Program-made: the position numbers and the translations under genes | From: Gemmatimonadota bacterium | Lineage (GTDB): Bacteria > Gemmatimonadota > Gemmatimonadetes > Longimicrobiales > Gaopeijiaceae | Length of the DNA stretch: 56,299 bases | Assembly (NCBI GenBank): GCA_009692205.1 | Contig: SHZR01000018.1 | Coordinates: forward strand, 1-56,299 | Reading direction: 5' to 3' | Notes under the pieces: model-generated | Told to the model about the DNA's origin: nothing | Database searches by the model: none | The model's input: only the letters and a program-made list of their open reading frames with translations | In this document: positions 36,916 through 45,879 of the stretch, in pieces | Numbering within the stretch: the stretch's first letter is position 1 | Layout: the number at the start of each line of letters is the position of its first letter

Positions 36916-39900
36916 CTAGCTGACACCCGTCGTTCCAGCCTCGCGCCCATGGCGTCCTCCCGAGCCCCACCGGTAGAAAAGCGCCGGCAGCACGACCATG
37001 TTCAGCGCCACGGAGGTCAGGAGCCCACCCAAGACCACGATCGCCATCGGTCGCTGGATCTCGTTTCCCGCCTCTCCGGCCGCCAGCGCCAGGGGCAGGA
37101 GCGCGAGCCCTGCCGTGAGCGCGGTCATCATCACGGGATTCAGTCGCTCCATCGATCCGCGGACCACGGCCGTGCGTAGGTCCGCTCCCTCCACCTCGAG
37201 CAGGTGGTTGTAGTGGCTCACCATGAGGATGCCGTTCCTGACGGCGATCCCGAAGAGCGTGATGAACCCGACCAAGGTGGCGACGTTGAGCACGCCGCCG
37301 GTGAGCAACACCGCGAACACACCGCCGACGAGCGCCAGCGGAAGGTTCACCATCACGAGGAGGGCCTGCCGTAGGGAGGCGAACTCCATGAACAGCAGCA
37401 GGAAAATCGCCGACAGGGACAGGAGCGACAGGAGCCCGATGGTGCGCGTCGCTTCGGCCGCGGACTCGAACTGTCCGCCGTACTGAACGTAGTAGCCGGA
37501 CGGTAAGGTGACCGATTGGCCCACGCGCTCCCGGATATCCTCGACCACGCTCCCGACGTCACGTCCGGCCACGTTGGCCTGGACCACGAGCTTGCGCTGC
37601 ACGTCCTCGCGGGTGATGGAGTTCGGGCCCATGTCGTAGCGGACGTCCGCCAGGGTGGCCAGCGGTACCTGCGCACCGACGGGAGTATCGATGCGCGCCT
37701 GGCGCACGGATTCGAGCGTCCCGCGGACCGAGGGATCGAAGCGCACGACCAGGGCGAACGCTCGCTGTTCCTCGAGGACCTGGGAGACCGTCTCGCCGGC
37801 GAAGGCCACGTCGATGGCCTCGGCGAGGTAGGCAGGCGTGACTCCGAAGCGCGCCATAGCGCCGCGATTCATCGTGACGTGGACCTGCGGCACGTCGGCC
37901 TGCTGCTCCGAAGCGACGTCGACCGTTCCCTCTACGCCGAGCGTCACCTGCTCGATCTCGCTCCCGAGTCGTCGAAGCTCCATCAAGTCGGGTCCGAAGA
38001 CGTCGATGGCGATGCTCGCGCGGGTACCGGACAGCATGTGGTCGATCCGGTGACCGATGGGCTGCCCGATCGTGATCTGGGTTCCCGGCACGGCGGTGAG
38101 GGCCGCGCGCAGGTCGGCGAGGACCGTCTCGTAGTCATGCCCGTCCAGGTCCAGGCGGACGTCGAGCTCGGCGGCGTTCACGCCCTGGGCGTGCTCGTCC
38201 AGCTCCGCGCGTCCCGTGCGCCGTGCCGTCTCCACCACGGCAGCGTGCGCCAGCAGGATCTCCTCGACCCGACGTCCGATCGCGTCCGACTCGTCCAACG
38301 AGGTGCCCGGAACGGTGAGGACGCTCACGACGAGCGTGCCTTCCTGGAACTCGGGCAAGAACGCTCTGCCGAGGAAGGGGAACGTGCCAGCGGCCGCGAC
38401 GACGAGCGCCACCGCTCCGGCGAGGACCGGAACGGGTCGGGCCAGCACGGCCTCGAGAGTGGGAGCGTACAGGCGCTTGAGCGTCCGGCTGACCCAGCTC
38501 TCAGTCTCGGTCTCGAGCGCCTTGGACTGGGGGAGCAGGTAGGTCGCGAGCGCCGGAGTCACGGTCAGTGCCACGACCAAGGAGGCGAGGATCGACACGA
38601 TATACGCGATCCCGAGGGGCCGGAGCATGCGACCCTCGACGCCCGACAGAAAGAAGATCGGGACGAACACGACCACGATGATGAGCGTCGCGTTGATGAT
38701 GCTGGCTCGAATCTCCTTGGATGCCTCGAACACGACCTCGTGCGCAGGGCGCTGCTCCGAGGGGGGTAGGTGGCGATTCTGGCGGAGTCGGCGAAAGACG
38801 TTCTCCACGTCGATCACGGCGTCGTCGACCAACGCTCCAATGGCGATCGCCATGCCGCCAAGAGTCATCGTGTTGATGGTGATGCCCAGGAGCCTCAGCG
38901 CGAACACCGCGGTGACCAGGGACAGCGGGATCGCCACGACCGAAATGAACGTGGTGCGCCCGCTCCACAAGAAGAGGAACAGGATCACGATCACGAGCAC
39001 GGCTCCGTCCCGCAGCGCGGCCAGCACGTTGTTCACCGCCGCCTCGATGAAGCTGGCCTGCCGGAAGATGCCCGGATTGATCGCCATTCCGGGCGGCAGA
39101 TCCGCCGCGATGTCGGACAGCTCGGCGTCGATGCGCTCGGTGAGCTCGAGCGTGTTCGTGTCGGGCTGCTTCTGGATCGTCAGGATGACCGCCCGGGACG
39201 CGTTCGCCGAGCCCTCGCCGAGGCGCGCGGCGGCACCGATGCGGACGTCCGCGACGTCGCCGAGCGTGACCGGGGTCCGATCATGCACGGCCACCACCGT
39301 GGCAGCGATGTCGTCCAAGCTCCGCACGCGTCCCGTGCCGCGGATGAGGTACTCCTGGCCGCGCTCCATGAACACGCCGCCCGAGGCGTTGACGTTGGAG
39401 CCGGCGGCCGCTTCGACGACGTCGTGCAGAGTCACGTCGTAGGCGGCCAGGCGCGTCGGGTCGACGAGGACCTGGTACTGCTTCACCTCGCCGCCGAGGG
39501 GAATGACCTGGGCCACACCCGGCACGGCCAAGAGTCGCCGGCGCACGGTCCAGTCGGCGACCGCGCGCATCTCCTCTGGGGAGACGTCCTCGGTCCCCGT
39601 GATCGCCACGAGCATGATCTCGCCCATGATCGACGTGATTGGGGCCAGCACCGGCGGGCCCGTTCCCACGGGAAGGGACGCCTGCACGAGCTGGAGCTTC
39701 TCGTTGACGATTTGGCGAGCGCGGAAAACGTCGGTGCCCCAGTCGAACTCGACCCAGACGATGCTGATCCCCTGCGTGGTCGAGGAGCGGACTCGGCGCA
39801 CGCCCGTCGCCCCGTTCACCGCCGTCTCCACGGGGAACGTGACCAGCGTCTCGACTTCCTCGGGCGCCATGCCGTGGGCTTCCGTCAGGACCGTGACGGT

Positions 39901-40035
39901 GGGGGCCGTGAGGTCGGGGAACACGTCCACGGGCATGCGTAGGGCCGTGACGGTCCCCGCCACGAGCAGGACGGTGGCCGCCGCGAGGACCAACAGTCGG
40001 TTCCCGATGGACCAGCGGATCAAATGGTCGAGCAC
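36916..40035 (-). CDS. Heavy-metal efflux RND pump (CusA/CzcA family)
   Basis: A 1039-residue RND transporter with 12 helices and two large periplasmic loops. It starts 'MLDHLIRWSIGNRLLVLAAA', and the helix 4 motif reads 'GGMAIAIGALVDDAVIDVEN', with the acidic pair of heavy-metal RND pumps. The second half contains 'GRAFLPEFQEGTLVVSV', 'IDVFGPDLMELRRLGSEI' and 'VGFITLFGIAVRNGILMVSH', all HME-type. It exports Cu+/Ag+ or divalent metals using the proton gradient, as a trimer with the adaptor and TolC partner coded just upstream. The gap to cusB is nine bases. Metal choice cannot be settled, but CopB and His-rich neighbours favour copper. Confidence 0.93.
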   Translation of the reverse strand: MLDHLIRWSIGNRLLVLAAATVLLVAGTVTALRMPVDVFPDLTAPTVTVLTEAHGMAPEEVETLVTFPVETAVNGATGVRRVRSSTTQGISIVWVEFDWGTDVFRARQIVNEKLQLVQASLPVGTGPPVLAPITSIMGEIMLVAITGTEDVSPEEMRAVADWTVRRRLLAVPGVAQVIPLGGEVKQYQVLVDPTRLAAYDVTLHDVVEAAAGSNVNASGGVFMERGQEYLIRGTGRVRSLDDIAATVVAVHDRTPVTLGDVADVRIGAAARLGEGSANASRAVILTIQKQPDTNTLELTERIDAELSDIAADLPPGMAINPGIFRQASFIEAAVNNVLAALRDGAVLVIVILFLFLWSGRTTFISVVAIPLSLVTAVFALRLLGITINTMTLGGMAIAIGALVDDAVIDVENVFRRLRQNRHLPPSEQRPAHEVVFEASKEIRASIINATLIIVVVFVPIFFLSGVEGRMLRPLGIAYIVSILASLVVALTVTPALATYLLPQSKALETETESWVSRTLKRLYAPTLEAVLARPVPVLAGAVALVVAAAGTFPFLGRAFLPEFQEGTLVVSVLTVPGTSLDESDAIGRRVEEILLAHAAVVETARRTGRAELDEHAQGVNAAELDVRLDLDGHDYETVLADLRAALTAVPGTQITIGQPIGHRIDHMLSGTRASIAIDVFGPDLMELRRLGSEIEQVTLGVEGTVDVASEQQADVPQVHVTMNRGAMARFGVTPAYLAEAIDVAFAGETVSQVLEEQRAFALVVRFDPSVRGTLESVRQARIDTPVGAQVPLATLADVRYDMGPNSITREDVQRKLVVQANVAGRDVGSVVEDIRERVGQSVTLPSGYYVQYGGQFESAAEATRTIGLLSLLSLSAIFLLLFMEFASLRQALLVMVNLPLALVGGVFAVLLTGGVLNVATLVGFITLFGIAVRNGILMVSHYNHLLEVEGADLRTAVVRGSMERLNPVMMTALTAGLALLPLALAAGEAGNEIQRPMAIVVLGGLLTSVALNMVVLPALFYRWGSGGRHGREAGTTGVS

Positions 40036-40044
40036 GGCTTCCTC

Positions 40045-41568
40045 CTAGTGGGCGTGACCGCCGGCGAACTCGTTCCCCGACATGGAGGCCAGTCGCACCT
40101 GATACGCCCCCGTGACGACCACCATCTCCCCTCCCTGAATGCCCTCCCGCACGATCACCTGCACCCCATCACTCGGGCCCAGCGTCAGAACGCGCCGCGC
40201 AAACGTCTCCCCTCCCGCCTGCACATAGGCTACGGGCGTGCCGTTGTCGTCGAGCACGGCAGACTCAGGGATCGCCACGCCCCTCTCGACTCCGCTCACC
40301 GGCACCACGGCGTTGGCGAGCTGCCCGAACGTGAACCGGCTACCTGTCCCCGCCACTTGGTAGACCACCGGGACCGTACGCGTGCGGGGATCCATGACCG
40401 TGCCGACCGACAGCAACCGCGTGGTCTCGTAGACCTCGGCAGAGCCCTCGAGGGTGAACCGAGCCGGACGAGCCTCCAGCGCGGTCGCTTGAGCCGCCGC
40501 CAACTGCACGCGCAGCCACGCCACCGAGGGATCCACGACGGTAAAGAGCGTCGTACCCGCGGCCACGCGTCCTCCCGGAACGAAGTCCCGGTGCGCGATC
40601 ACTCCGGTGATGGGCGCTCGCAGGCGGAGGAGAAAGTCCCCGGCCACAGCGCCGCCCATGGCGCCGAGCTCCGCCCGGGCGATATCCAGGTCGTGACGGG
40701 CTTCGTCGAGGCGTCGACGAGCGATCGCGCCCACCTCTGCGAGCCGTTCGAGCCGCGCCACCTCTCGCTCGAGACGCTCCACCCGGCCCCGCGACTCGGC
40801 GAAGCCGCCCTCCTGGGTGGTCGGGGCGAGCACCGCCACTACGTCACCCTGCTGAACGTGGGTCCCCACAGACGGCGCGTTGCGGTTGGCATCCGCGGGA
40901 GCGATCCCGTCCACGGGGGCGCTCACCTGGAACAGCGAGCCGTCGGGCGGCACGACCTCGGCCGGCGCCAGGACCGTGCGCTGCACGTCCTGCTCCGCCG
41001 CCGCAGCGACGTCGAATGGGATGACCCACTGCTGTTCCTTCAGGAATGCAATTCCCGCCGCCCCACCTTCCCCCGCGCCTTCGCGCGGCGCCAAGTCCAG
41101 GAACTCGTAGACCGTGACCGAGGGCAGCGCGTGCCGCCCGGTTACCTGTGGGCTCGTGAGCGCGAACTCCACCTCGTAGGTGCCCGCGCGCTGAATCACG
41201 GGGTCGAGCAGGAAGATGCCGTCCCTCGCCGGTGCCTCGAGCGTGAACGTCTCCGGCGTGCCTGCCTCGCCGGCGAGAGGCGTGAACCGCACCGTGAGCA
41301 CACCCGAGCGGATCGGCTTGAAGTCCGTCCGGTCCGTGAGGTGGATCGCCCAGTTGCCGGTTGCAGAGCCGGCCACAGGATGCGGGTACTCGAGAAAGAG
41401 CTCGGTGGAGTCGCTCCACTGGGTCACGACCACGGCGGCGATCCCGGGGGCCGCGGTCTCGACGGATGCGTCGGCACACGCTGCCACGGAGAGCGCGAGC
41501 AGGGGGATCATGCGCAGCCGATTGGCAGGCCGCGCGCTGGAGGTCCTTCTCGTCGTTGTCGGTCTCAT
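40045..41568 (-). CDS. RND efflux periplasmic adaptor (CusB-like), lipoprotein
   Basis: A 507-residue adaptor with lipobox 'LSVAAC' (Cys31). After an N-terminal beta domain (about 40-170), it has the lipoyl halves 'SAPVDGIAPADANRNAPSVG' and 'LRLRAPITGVIAHRDFVPGG' around a coiled-coil hairpin ('RVERLEREVARLERLAEVGA', 'RRRLDEARHDLDIARAELG'), and the beta-barrel and membrane-proximal domains to 'GAYQVRLASMSGNEFAGGHAH'. The final 'GHAH' could bind metal. It bridges the RND pump and TolC. Its ATG overlaps the tolC-like stop by four bases. Confidence 0.92.
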   Translation of the reverse strand: MRPTTTRRTSSARPANRLRMIPLLALSVAACADASVETAAPGIAAVVVTQWSDSTELFLEYPHPVAGSATGNWAIHLTDRTDFKPIRSGVLTVRFTPLAGEAGTPETFTLEAPARDGIFLLDPVIQRAGTYEVEFALTSPQVTGRHALPSVTVYEFLDLAPREGAGEGGAAGIAFLKEQQWVIPFDVAAAAEQDVQRTVLAPAEVVPPDGSLFQVSAPVDGIAPADANRNAPSVGTHVQQGDVVAVLAPTTQEGGFAESRGRVERLEREVARLERLAEVGAIARRRLDEARHDLDIARAELGAMGGAVAGDFLLRLRAPITGVIAHRDFVPGGRVAAGTTLFTVVDPSVAWLRVQLAAAQATALEARPARFTLEGSAEVYETTRLLSVGTVMDPRTRTVPVVYQVAGTGSRFTFGQLANAVVPVSGVERGVAIPESAVLDDNGTPVAYVQAGGETFARRVLTLGPSDGVQVIVREGIQGGEMVVVTGAYQVRLASMSGNEFAGGHAH

Positions 41569-42824
41569 TGTCCGTCCTCCGTCGAGGGGGCACCGGCGAA
41601 GCCGCCGACGGCCCGCTCAAGGTCGAAGTGCGCGATCCACAGTTGGGCCAGCAGGTGGGCCTCCGCAGTACGTGCTTGGTGCAGCGCCTCCGCCGCGTCG
41701 AGCAGCTCCACGAGCTCCATGTCGCCTGCGTCATAGGCCACCAGGGCGATCTCTAGCAGGTCTGCCGTATCGCCGATCGCGTCGTCGGTGAGGAGCGCGG
41801 CGCGGCGTCGCAGAGCCGCGTACGCATCCGTCGCTCGGAGGACGTCGTTCTGCAGCTGACGCTCTGTCAGCGTGAGGCGCTCCTGCGCTCCCCGAGCACC
41901 TGCGTCGGCGGCGTCCACGGCGCCTGCGTTCCGGTCGAAGATTGGGAAGGGAACCGACAGTCCTAGGAAGGCTCCGCGTAGGCCGTCGGACTGGCGCTTC
42001 AGGCCACCCGTGGCGGTCACGACGGGTATCCGTTCCGCGCGGGCGAACCGGGCCTGCGCTTCCTGCGCCTCGAAGTCGGCTCGAGCGGCCACGAGCTCCG
42101 GTCGCCGCTCGATCACGGTGAGTTGGAGTCCCTCCGCGAGCAGGTCAGGGGGTGTGTCCGTCGGTAACGGCTCCGCGGCCAAGCGAAGGGCGTCGTCCTC
42201 GGGCGCGACCACAAGCGCGAGCGCTCGCTGGGTGGCTGCCACGTCCAGGTCGGCGTCCAGCAGCAGCGTCTCGTAGCGAGCGCGCTCCACCCGAATTCTG
42301 CGGAGGGCGTAGAGCGAGATATCGCCGGCCTCATACCGCTCGGTCGCGCTGCGCGCCGCCTCTCGGAAGACATCTGCCACGCGCTCCGTGACGTCGAAGC
42401 TCTCTTGGGCGAGGGCCGCTTCCAGAAACGCTTCCTTGACCTCGAAGGCGAGGCGGGCGCTGTCGGCGTGGACGAGCGCGCGTGCGGCCTCCCACCTCAG
42501 CGCGCCCGCGTCCGCTCGGGCTCCCCGCGTACCCGAGATCTCCAGACGCTGACTCACGGTGAGGTACGTCTCGGAATAGGCGCGCCCCCCTCCCGAAAGC
42601 GGCTCGTGGGTCGCCATGAGGGAGGGATTGGCGAACGCGCCCGCTTGTCGCGCGAGCCCCGCGGCCTCGTCGGACCTGGCCCGGGCCGCACGCAGCTCGA
42701 GGCTGTTCGCAGCAAACATGCGCAGGGCCTCGTCGAGGCTCACGACAGGGGCTTCCTGTGCAACCAAGGGCGACGACGCCAAGGCGGCCACGAGGCCCCA
42801 CAGCACAACTGGATGATTGATCAC
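41565..42824 (-). CDS. TolC-family outer membrane efflux channel
   Basis: GTG at 42824, seven bases after GGAGA, gives a 419-residue protein with a signal peptide ending 'ALASSPLVAQ'. Two repeats of the OEP type are visible: 'VSLDEALRMFAANSLELRAA' and 'ARAEADFEAQ'-like 'AARADFEAQEAQARFARAE', with long amphipathic helices. 'GLSVPFPIFDRNAGAVDAA' is the conserved strand-turn in CzcC/CusC-type proteins. It forms the outer membrane exit of the RND pump coded downstream. GTG 42851 is an alternative start. Confidence 0.9.
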   Translation of the reverse strand: MINHPVVLWGLVAALASSPLVAQEAPVVSLDEALRMFAANSLELRAARARSDEAAGLARQAGAFANPSLMATHEPLSGGGRAYSETYLTVSQRLEISGTRGARADAGALRWEAARALVHADSARLAFEVKEAFLEAALAQESFDVTERVADVFREAARSATERYEAGDISLYALRRIRVERARYETLLLDADLDVAATQRALALVVAPEDDALRLAAEPLPTDTPPDLLAEGLQLTVIERRPELVAARADFEAQEAQARFARAERIPVVTATGGLKRQSDGLRGAFLGLSVPFPIFDRNAGAVDAADAGARGAQERLTLTERQLQNDVLRATDAYAALRRRAALLTDDAIGDTADLLEIALVAYDAGDMELVELLDAAEALHQARTAEAHLLAQLWIAHFDLERAVGGFAGAPSTEDGQ

Positions 42825-42926
42825 GAGGGCGTCTCCGGACGCACTTGCCACGGCCGCCGCGATGCGGCGACCGGGCAGGGGTTCAGGAAATGGAGGGGGA
42901 GGCGCAGCCGCGATTGCGGCTGGCCT

Positions 42927-43262
42927 TCAGACGGAGACGGGAGGGGCGCGCGGCTGGTCTGTGGGCGGAGGTCGACCCCGGATCACGGGTTGCCGTACGG
43001 GACGGAACGTGACCTCCGTTGTGGAGAGGTCGTCCCCCAGGTACAGCGTGGGCGCAGACGGCAGCGCCGCGACGCTCATCTCGGAGGTGAGGCGATCAGA
43101 CTGGTCGACGAGTTGGACGCCGTGGCCGTGGTGCCCCGCGTCAGCGAGCACCGGATGGAGGTCGGCTTCCCCATGATGATGCGACGGGACGCCACTCGTC
43201 AGCGCGCCGATGAGGACGGCGAGCAAGAGGGCCTGAAGCCGGATGAGGGGTCTCGGACGCAT
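42927..43262 (-). CDS. Secreted His-rich small protein heading the metal-efflux operon
   Basis: A 111-residue protein with a signal peptide ('RLQALLLAVLIGALTSG') and a His cluster 'SHHHGEADLHPV' then 'AGHHGHG', followed by a Pro/Arg-rich tail 'GRPPPTDQPRAPPVSV'. Similar short His-containing exported proteins are common before tolC-cusBA operons and may bind metal in the periplasm. The role is inferred from composition and position. There is no ribosome site; the predicted transcript starts within a few bases of the ATG. Confidence 0.7.
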   Translation of the reverse strand: MRPRPLIRLQALLLAVLIGALTSGVPSHHHGEADLHPVLADAGHHGHGVQLVDQSDRLTSEMSVAALPSAPTLYLGDDLSTTEVTFRPVRQPVIRGRPPPTDQPRAPPVSV

Positions 43263-43401: not shown

Positions 43402-45042
43402 ATGAAGGTCCTCGACGAGTCAGGGAAGGGTGTGGCGGCCGGGTCGAAGCTCGATCTCGCGAGTCTGGGTCTGCCCGTGGCCGGACGCCGCGGCACGCTC
43501 GTCGTCTTCTGGAAGCGACAATGACAGGGATGCCGGCAGGAGGCTCCTGTCATACGCAGTGTCTTCGAGCGCTTCAGGGAGAAGGGCCTCGAGGTCGTGT
43601 ACGTCGGCCCGTTCGAGACCACCGAGTCGTGCGACGAGTGGAAGAGGGAGTACGACCTGGCGTTCCCGGTCGTTCCGGACGCGGACGGTGCGCTCTTCCG
43701 GAGGCTCACCAGCGGCTGGGTGCCTTGGAGCATTCTTGTGGCGCCCGACGGAGAAGTCGTCTTCTCCGAGAACGAGTTCGACGAGGCGGGCTTTGGCGCG
43801 GCGATTTCCCAACTTCTCGCCAAGCAGACCGGGGTCGCACCGACAGCTACTGAGAGCACCCAGCGGACGCCGGCGGCTCGCCGAGCCTCCAAGGCGGCGA
43901 CCGTCGTCATCTTGGGCGGTGGCGTCGGCGGCATCGTGGCGGCGCACAATTTGCGCGCGAGCCTGGGTGAGGAACACCGGATCTTCGTCATCGATCGTTC
44001 ACCCGATCACCTGTTCCAGTCCTCCCTGCTCTGGCTCATGGTCGGAGACCGGCGTGAGCATCAGATCCGGAGACCCCTGGAGCGACTGACACGCCGTGGA
44101 ATCGAGTTCGTGCACGACGAAGTGGTGGAGATCGACCTAGAGCGCAGGCTCGTGCGGACGCGCGCGCGCACCCTCGACTTCGACTACCTGATCGTCGCGC
44201 TCGGCGCCCGCACCGTGCCCGAGTCGATCGAGGGGTTCGGCGAGATGGCCCACGATCTCTACAGTCTCGAGGGGAGCCGCGGCATCAAGAACGCGCTGGA
44301 CGCATTCACCGGCGGAAAGGTGGGCGTCCTAGTCACGTCCATGCCCTTCAAGTGCCCGGCGGCTCCGTACGAGGCCGCGTTCCTGGTGGAGTCGTTTCTT
44401 CGGGCCAAGGGCGTGCGAGACCGCTCGGAGATCCACGTGTATACGCCCGAGCATCAGCCTATGCCGGTGGCGCCCGCTGCCTTGGGTGCGTCGATCGTGG
44501 AGATGCTCAGCGCCCGCGGCATTCAGTACCACCCTCTCTTCACCTTCCAGAAGATGCGCCCCGAGACGCGGGAGATCGTCGCGGCCGACGGACATGCCGA
44601 GAAGGTGGATCTCCTGATCGCGGTCCCGCCCCACCAGGCACCGGAGGTCGTGCGGTCGTCCGGACTTCTCGGCGTGTCCGGCTGGATCCCGGTCGACCCG
44701 GGCACGCTGCGCACGGAGCACGAGGGTGTGTTCGCGATCGGCGACGTCTCGACGGTCAGGCTGCCCAGCGGTAAGTCGCTGCCGAAGGCCGGCGTGTTCG
44801 CGCACAACCAGGCCGTGGTGGTCGCGCGGCAGATCGCGGACGAGATCCGGGGGCGGAGAGACGGAGCCAGGTTCGACGGCGGAGGGTACTGCTGGATCGA
44901 GCTCGGGGATGGCCGGGCGGGCTTCGCCGGTGGCAACTTCTACCACGACCCCGAACCCCGGCTGCGAGTTGCCCGACCCGGCCGCGCCTGGCACTGGGGA
45001 AAGGTGGCCTTCGAGAAGTGGTGGCTGCGACGCTGGTTCTGA
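43402..45042 (+). CDS. Selenoprotein: thioredoxin-fold (UxxC) domain fused to SQR-like FAD/NAD(P) oxidoreductase
   Basis: ATG at 43402 follows GGAG at seven bases. The frame has one internal TGA (43522-43524, codon 41) and otherwise runs open to 45042: 546 residues if TGA is read as selenocysteine. Around it the protein reads 'TLVVFWKRQ-U-QGCRQEAPV', which lines up with the TlpA/redoxin active site 'FWxxWCxxCRxExP', TGA falling on the first Cys (U41, C44). The cis-Pro loop is 'GWVPWSILVAPDG' (P108). Residues about 165-546 are a pyridine nucleotide-disulfide/SQR-like flavoprotein: 'VVILGGGVGGIVAAHNL' (FAD), Cys318 in 'MPFKCPAAPYE', and 'EGVFAIGDVSTVRL'. The flavin probably exchanges electrons with the U-C pair in cis. 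A SECIS-like stem-loop follows the TGA. A downstream methyltransferase also has an in-frame TGA. Divergent from the metal operon. Confidence 0.85.
43522..43552 (+). promoter_or_regulatory. Candidate bacterial SECIS element 1
   Basis: After the TGA (43522-43524), GGCAGG (43535-43540) pairs with CCTGTC (43546-43551), including one G-U, around the loop AGGCT. The apical loop starts 16 nt after the TGA, is 5 nt long and has G at its second position, as in the published bacterial SECIS model. The loop is close to the AGGUCU loop of E. coli fdhF. An alternative fold pairs TGACAGG itself with CCTGTCA (43546-43552). Confidence 0.7.
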
Positions 45043-45072
45043 CACGATGGTCGACAACGGAGAAGGGGAGCG

Positions 45073-45879
45073 ATGAGTGAGCCCATGATTCCCGCGGCTG
45101 ATGCGCAGGCCTCGCTCGAGGCGGCGCTCAAAGGCGAGATCCTCAGGATGTACGAGGAGGTCGCCGAGCAACCCAACGGAGACTTCCACTTCTTCCATGG
45201 CCGCGCCGCAGCCGAGCTGTTCGACTACGATCCCGAGCTTCTGGACCGGGCCCCGCCGAGTGCGGTCGCCTCGTTCGCCGGTGTGGGAAACCCGCATCTG
45301 CGCAGCGAGCTCAAGCCGGGCGAGACCGTGCTCGACCTCGGGAGCGGGGCGGGACTGGACGGGATCATCGCCTCTTGGCAGGTCGGGCCCACCGGGACCG
45401 TCATCGGCGTCGACCTCAATCCCGCGATGTGCATGCGCGCGAAGGCCAACGCGGGCGCATCCGGGACCCAGCTCGAGTGCAGAGAGGGGCGGATGGAAGA
45501 TCTACCGCTCGACGATGAATCGGTCGACGTGGTGATCTCGAACGGCGTCATCAACCTGTCGTTCCAGAAGCGGAAGGTCGTCCGCGAGCTCTTCCGCGTC
45601 CTCAAGCCCGGCGGACGCATCGCCGTCACGGACATCGTCAGCGCGAAGCAGCTGTCGCAGAGCATCGTCAACGACCCCAAGCTCTGGGCGTCTTGAATCG
45701 GAGGCGCTCTCCCGGAGGGAGAGTTGTTCACGCTGCTGGAAGAGGCGGGCTTCAAGCGCGTGAAGTCGGTGGTCGTTCCGCGGTTCCGCTTCCGGCGTCA
45801 GTCGACCCAGAACGCCGCGGAGGCCTACGGAGTGAAGGCCGTGCTGATGACCGCCACACGCCCTGAGGCGCTCATTTGA
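45073..45879 (+). CDS. Selenoprotein: ArsM-like SAM-dependent methyltransferase
   Basis: ATG at 45073, 30 bases after the flavoprotein gene, with GGAG upstream. The frame contains one TGA (45694-45696, codon 208) and ends at TGA 45877-45879, giving 268 residues with Sec. The Rossmann core has 'VLDLGSGAGLDGIIA', 'VIGVDLNPAMC', 'EGRMEDLPLDDESVDVVISN' and 'LFRVLKPGGRIAVTDIVS'. The stop interrupts 'DPKLWAS-U-IGGALPEGELF', the place where arsenite methyltransferases have 'W.(G/S)C(I/L).GAL', so TGA replaces the conserved catalytic Cys. Other ArsM cysteines are not kept: 'SNCVINLS' is 'SNGVINLS' (G158) and 'GCGNP' is 'GVGNP'. The substrate may therefore not be arsenite. A perfect SECIS-like hairpin follows. 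Without recoding, the product would stop at 207 residues. Confidence 0.85.
45694..45724 (+). promoter_or_regulatory. Candidate bacterial SECIS element 2
   Basis: After the TGA (45694-45696), CTCTCCC (45707-45713) pairs perfectly with GGGAGAG (45717-45723) around the loop GGA; a further G-U pair extends it. The loop starts 17 nt after the TGA, and its first base is G. Spacing and loop match the bacterial SECIS model and parallel element 1. Confidence 0.72.

Follow-up and report, generated by a model that had tools for sequence, protein, structure and literature searches.

The question raised by this locus is whether two adjacent genes of a Gemmatimonadota genome, each carrying a TGA codon within its reading frame, are translated through it as selenoproteins and, if so, whether their products work together. 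The window, i.e., the whole stretch of DNA that was analysed, is 56,299 nucleotides long. A preliminary description had placed in it two same-strand genes 30 bases apart, each with one in-frame TGA, and the coordinates bear this out: both genes lie on the forward strand with a gap of 30 nt, and a single in-frame TGA precedes the stop in each, at codon 41 of gene 1 and codon 208 of gene 2. The features are as follows.

36916..42851, − strand: divergent RND efflux operon with an inner-membrane pump, an HlyD/CusB-type adaptor and an outer-membrane channel (Pfam ACR_tran, HlyD_3/HlyD_D23 and OEP)

43402..45042, + strand: gene 1, encoding a predicted 546-amino-acid selenoprotein that joins a ResA/TlpA (AhpC/TSA)-type redoxin to a type III SQR/FCSD-like flavoprotein (Pfam, NCBIfam and PDB matches, 12 full-length copies, AlphaFold, Foldseek)

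43477..43785, + strand: redoxin domain of gene 1, about residues 26-128, with the motif FWKRQU41QGC44 (AhpC-TSA match and ResA alignment)

43522..43524, + strand: predicted Sec41 TGA codon of gene 1, at the first Cys position of WCxxC

43535..43551, + strand: SECIS-like stem-loop of gene 1, with a 7-bp stem and the triloop GGC at 43542-43544

43897..45039, + strand: SQR/FCSD-like domain of gene 1, residues 166-546, with Cys318 (44353-44355), Cys497 (44890-44892) and a C-terminal helix

45073..45879, + strand: gene 2, encoding a 268-amino-acid ArsM-like SAM-dependent methyltransferase, also a predicted selenoprotein (NCBIfam and PDB ArsM matches)

45694..45696, + strand: predicted Sec208 TGA codon of gene 2, at the position of CmArsM Cys224

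45707..45723, + strand: SECIS-like stem-loop of gene 2, with a 7-bp stem and the triloop GGA at 45714-45716

TGA is not generally reassigned here, since it terminates 23 of the 46 long open reading frames predicted in the window. The earlier claim that frame and protein family run on beyond each TGA holds for both genes. In gene 1, Pfam matches AhpC/TSA at residues 27-119 and Pyr_redox_2 at residues 167-458, covering both sides of the codon, and in gene 2, methyltransferase and ArsM models from Pfam and NCBIfam match residues 50-231, spanning it. The stop codon of gene 1 is itself a TGA with gene 2 in the same frame downstream (45040-45072), and its decoding would yield a triple fusion; a SECIS-type stem was looked for at this TGA and is not there, and the position is TAA or TAG in 9 of 11 homologs.

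The preliminary description proposed searching the rest of the genome for selA, selB, selD and selC, and the complete set is present. In the source assembly (2.72 Mb in 61 contigs, 97.9% complete), selB (323 bits), selA (554 bits), selD (390 bits) and a tRNA-Sec with the anticodon UCA (66.5 bits) all score above their curated cut-offs. The selD gene holds an in-frame TGA of its own, at GAGUACKLG (L018, contig C27:29767-30690). Full-length homologs of gene 1, with 56-64% identity, come from genomes of Acidobacteria and Actinobacteria/Thermoleophilia. The TGA stands at the same codon (40 or 41) in 12/12 distinct full-length fusion copies, the window's included, within the motif FWKxQU(QG/LT)CR, and SelA was found in all five fusion genomes with a full-length copy that were tested. 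Codon 208 of gene 2 is likewise TGA in the 30 closest copies (the window's among them, the others 69-85% identical), and relatives in the same clade at about 39-54% identity have TGA in 10 cases and TGC in 6. The Cys/Sec exchange that was to be looked for at both codons is therefore seen at codon 208 but not at codon 41, where no Cys version of the redoxin–SQR fusion itself was found and Cys occurs only in its redoxin family.

A stem-loop had also been described after each TGA. Both are present with loops that begin with GG; the distance to the loop, given earlier as 16 or 17 nt, is 17 nt from TGA to apical loop at both sites, with the same 7-bp stem and GGN triloop. A loose bSECIS criterion (stem-loop 16-37 nt from the TGA, loop starting with GG) was discarded as undiscriminating because 389 of the 1269 TGAs in the window fit it. 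The exact shared geometry is found at only these two of the 1269, with about 0.24 expected from background over all start positions; as this geometry was set after both sites had been seen, its uniqueness is supportive and not a test, and the independent test is conservation in relatives. The gene 2 stem is paired in 93.7% of cells across 34 distinct methyltransferase sequences, with compensatory changes at three of its seven pairs (e.g., C-G to G-C), and its covariation score was reached by none of 500 shuffles, a control that the relatedness of the sequences inflates. The gene 1 stem is 100% paired in 8 distinct fusion sequences, with a compensatory change at one of seven pairs. Conservation of the stems thus appears strong for gene 2 and modest for gene 1, where covariation amounts to that one pair. 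An Rfam search across both genes returned no SECIS match.

On this comparative evidence, both genes are almost certainly translated through UGA as selenoproteins. The core claim of two neighbouring selenoprotein genes is upheld by the machinery, the UGA shared across phyla, the compensated stems and the Sec/Cys exchange at codon 208. A reading with the standard code stops each gene at its UGA, so both proteins are easily overlooked.

The TGAs had further been said to fall at important Cys positions, and they do: U41 lies on the Cys of the ResA WCxxC and U208 on Cys224 of CmArsM. For gene 1, direct reading of the motif alignment together with ResA matches in the PDB puts U41 at the first Cys of the ResA-type WCxxC, the nucleophile position, and FWKRQUQGC aligned with ResA has the thioredoxin-fold redox motif expected of ResA/TlpA redoxins. 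The protein starts MKVLDESGKGVAAGSKLDL, and direct reading of this start shows no hydrophobic segment that could serve as an N-terminal anchor or signal. Downstream, the FAD fold and the redox Cys pair place the second domain with the SQR/FCSD proteins, for which sulfide-dependent reduction of quinone or cytochrome is here only predicted. Cys318 (in FKCPAAPYE) and Cys497 are retained in all fusion copies. AlphaFold (pLDDT 79.3, pTM 0.76) predicts an SQR body to which a flexible linker connects a redoxin head, with low confidence for the linker at 147-166 and a helix at the C terminus, and the best Foldseek matches of the model are SQRs. In the tree, the fusions' SQR domains group in a single clade (100/100), which also holds L086, a copy whose N terminus is lost at a contig end. 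A second SQR-like gene of the source genome (contig C51) was rejected as a candidate; its TGA and a TAA lie upstream of the start, and it is an ordinary Cys SQR.

No redoxin–SQR fusion with Sec in the redoxin was found in the family-model libraries, by literature searches or in the reviews consulted, which cover the literature in part and leave room for an earlier mention. As a selenoprotein architecture, the gene 1 fusion is apparently undescribed, but its protein parts are of known kinds. Sec is present in every fusion copy found, across Acidobacteria and Actinobacteria/Thermoleophilia.

Gene 2 scores 211.7 bits against NF008823 (cut-off 263) and 211.2 bits against NF041537. Aligned to CmArsM among the ArsM chains of the PDB, its U208 corresponds to Cys224, G158 to Cys174 and V71 to Cys72. 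This V/G/U set is kept throughout the 30-member close clade, three-Cys ArsMs of the same phylum have C/C/C, and the two groups part in the tree (93/90). ArsM orthologs are defined by Cys at CmArsM positions 72, 174 and 224 (PMC5552862), and in human AS3MT, the equivalent cysteines are required to methylate arsenite (PMC3877260). Gene 2 has the SAM-methyltransferase fold and an ArsM-like sequence, but with V71, G158 and U208 in place of the three cysteines, it falls outside ArsM despite the fold. It retains just one of the three arsenite-binding Cys positions, as Sec, and the label arsenite methyltransferase is doubtful; we lean slightly toward a substrate other than free arsenite.

The wider Sec/Cys clade annotated as ArsM (L052-L081, L163-L182, L096, L097 and L099) reads SFAGxGNP, SNGVxNL and U or C at 208, and the three-Cys ArsMs of the same phylum, which stand apart from it, read GCGNP, SNCVINL and C. 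This clade probably has a substrate different from arsenite. Its Sec group is already known from NCBIfam Sec models and a 2026 inventory (PMC13188914), which lists Sec in a UxxG motif for the ArsM-type family; no discussion of the missing arsenite ligands in this group was found in the accessible literature. Widespread Sec methyltransferases are thus annotated as arsenite methyltransferases with two of the three arsenite ligands gone, and for gene 2, the arsenic label should be doubted.

Whether the two genes belong together is a separate matter. The pair is not conserved across genomes: among 12 fusion loci with flanks, a Sec methyltransferase neighbours the fusion only in the window and at L082, and the pairing is largely lineage-specific. 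At L082, from Acidobacteria, the methyltransferase is of a different subgroup and lies 243 nt downstream of the fusion, frameshifted and at a contig end. A methyltransferase-like match near the fusion at L143 was rejected as another pairing, being an ordinary methyltransferase with no U-x-x-G-A motif. Among 121 genomes from the source family and 395 in a phylum sample, only the source genome itself has the fusion, so the fusion was likely gained horizontally.

The two genes may accordingly be chance neighbours, the gained fusion having inserted in front of a native Sec methyltransferase, with no pathway in common. Besides the rarity of the fusion in family and phylum, this account fits a methyltransferase that is common there and is found, within the same genus, in genomes that do not have the fusion, and it fits the finding of just one similar pairing elsewhere. 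The 30-nt gap, shared strand, good ribosome-binding sites and identical SECIS geometry, however, suggest co-expression, and L082 provides a second, independent pairing with another methyltransferase subgroup. We give chance proximity a sizeable but minor share of the probability.

The surroundings bear on what the proteins might do. The preliminary description had noted a divergent CusCBA-like operon, and Pfam confirms the RND, HlyD and OEP set; the operon is a neighbour and at most a putative member of the gene 1/gene 2 system. Ahead of it, at 42927-43262 on the − strand, lies a 111-amino-acid open reading frame with a signal-like start and no Pfam match. Neighbourhoods were counted at 11 fusion loci with flanks outside the source genome. 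An ArsR-type gene is near the fusion in 11 of 11, a DsrE-type gene in 6, an ArsR–rhodanese in 5, a second SQR in 3, an ArsP_1 permease in 2 and TauE in 1; the window locus is without the ArsR and DsrE neighbours found at these other loci. The recurrent ArsR, ArsR–rhodanese, DsrE, SQR and TauE neighbours favour sulfide or sulfane-sulfur chemistry. Of the metal(loid), thiol or sulfide role suggested earlier, the sulfur part is therefore favoured by neighbours, whereas the metal part draws only on the neighbourhood of the window, and no CusCBA-type operon was seen at the 11 other fusion loci. Three fusion clusters (L143, L144 and L146) have a second, Cys-type SQR, with DsrE proteins at L143 and L144, and look like an Actinobacteria sulfide or sulfane-sulfur island. 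MMPL-like RND-superfamily proteins with a IKTDTDPKNMLP motif were seen by eye near three fusion loci (L083:1668-4010, L147:5006-5305 and L148:3-215).

The reading that we favour, and consider reasonably probable, is that the Sec-decoded pair combines a redoxin–SQR relay with a Sec208 methyltransferase and handles toxic chalcogenide or metalloid species. The gene 1 product would most likely be a cytoplasmic, membrane-associated thiol/sulfide oxidoreductase. Judging by its residues and fold, the Sec41–Cys44 selenol–thiol head would exchange electrons or sulfane sulfur with Cys318–Cys497 of the SQR, and the SQR body would pass two electrons via FAD to quinone, an acceptor read from the family; the prospects of this relay are about evenly balanced. 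In the gene 2 product, a SAM methyltransferase, Sec208 may be the sole residue that binds the substrate or soft nucleophile, for which sulfide, selenide, a persulfide and a metalloid already methylated in part are candidates. Together, the two proteins would oxidise and methylate a toxic chalcogenide or metalloid species. Such a shared pathway is the weakest step, plausible at somewhat below an even chance. A bolder version posits a new Se-dependent chalcogen pathway in which the fusion would oxidise sulfide, persulfide or selenide and the Sec clade of ArsM-like proteins would methylate a soft chalcogen or organometalloid on its single Sec, and this we hold to be unlikely.

An arsenic detoxification pair is similarly doubtful. 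Here gene 2 would work as an arsenite methyltransferase and gene 1, acting much as an inbuilt thioredoxin system, would re-reduce the thiols or arsenic intermediates oxidised in every round of methylation. ArsM is the closest sequence to gene 2, the efflux operon next to the pair is of a metal type, and in other genomes the fusion has ArsR-type genes beside it and, at two loci, ArsP_1 permeases. Neither of these families is arsenic-specific, however, and neither the vicinity of gene 2 nor, by eye, the surroundings of the relatives read showed a further recognisable ars gene. What weighs further against arsenic is that the positions of CmArsM Cys72 and Cys174, by which ArsM is defined (PMC5552862) and whose human equivalents are essential for arsenite methylation (PMC3877260), are occupied by V and G in the whole Sec clade. 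That each TGA is a sequencing error or a pseudogene stop could be argued from the metagenome-type assemblies and the comparative nature of the support for Sec, but is scarcely credible and refuted in practice by the recurrence of the identical UGA across several lineages in dozens of independent assemblies, the full Sec machinery of the genome, the compensatory changes in the stems and the normal use of TGA as a stop for many genes, which shows no general reassignment. Both the fusion architecture and the lost arsenite ligands convert an annotation into a question that experiments can address.

The preliminary description did not recognise the pair as a described system. That stands for the fusion, as no model or review was found with a Sec redoxin–SQR, but the Sec group that includes the methyltransferase has been described before, as have UxxC redoxins. 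Adjacent, co-oriented selenoprotein genes as found here also make up the grdA–grdB, SAO and Tso operons, reviewed in PMC13188914; those operons are of other families, and the pairing of gene 1 with gene 2 is rarely conserved. Among ArsM-type selenoproteins (NF008823, NF041537 ArsM_AhpD_UU, NF041536 ArsM_DUF2284_UU and NF047649 MTase_UXPK_star), gene 2 aligns with the Sec models over residues 19-239. It differs in being stand-alone, in scoring below all curated cut-offs and in being without equivalents of Cys72 and Cys174, the comparison with NCBIfam Sec members covering gene 2's side only.

Gene 1 shares Sec at the first Cys of CxxC with the UxxC redoxin and TlpA/ResA-like selenoproteins listed in PMC13188914, but differs in having its redoxin joined to an SQR and in showing no N-terminal hydrophobic anchor or signal. 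The selenoprotein subtype of type III SQRs (NF049943) has the same flavoprotein fold and is the closest NCBIfam model for residues 167-517 of gene 1, which at 242.4 bits falls short of the cut-off of 525 and thus outside the subtype. At L089, L121 and L122, stand-alone type III SQRs carry Sec (HTLU or HTIU) where gene 1 has Cys497, and the TGA of L121 is also followed by a 7-bp stem with GG in its triloop. In NF049943, the Sec of HxxU replaces the residue aligned to Cys497, whereas gene 1 keeps Cys497 and carries its Sec in the added N-terminal redoxin. Because the known Sec-SQRs have Sec at the Cys497 site, gene 1 represents a different use of Sec, a concrete selenoprotein architecture in which a selenol redoxin would be wired to a quinone-type flavoprotein.
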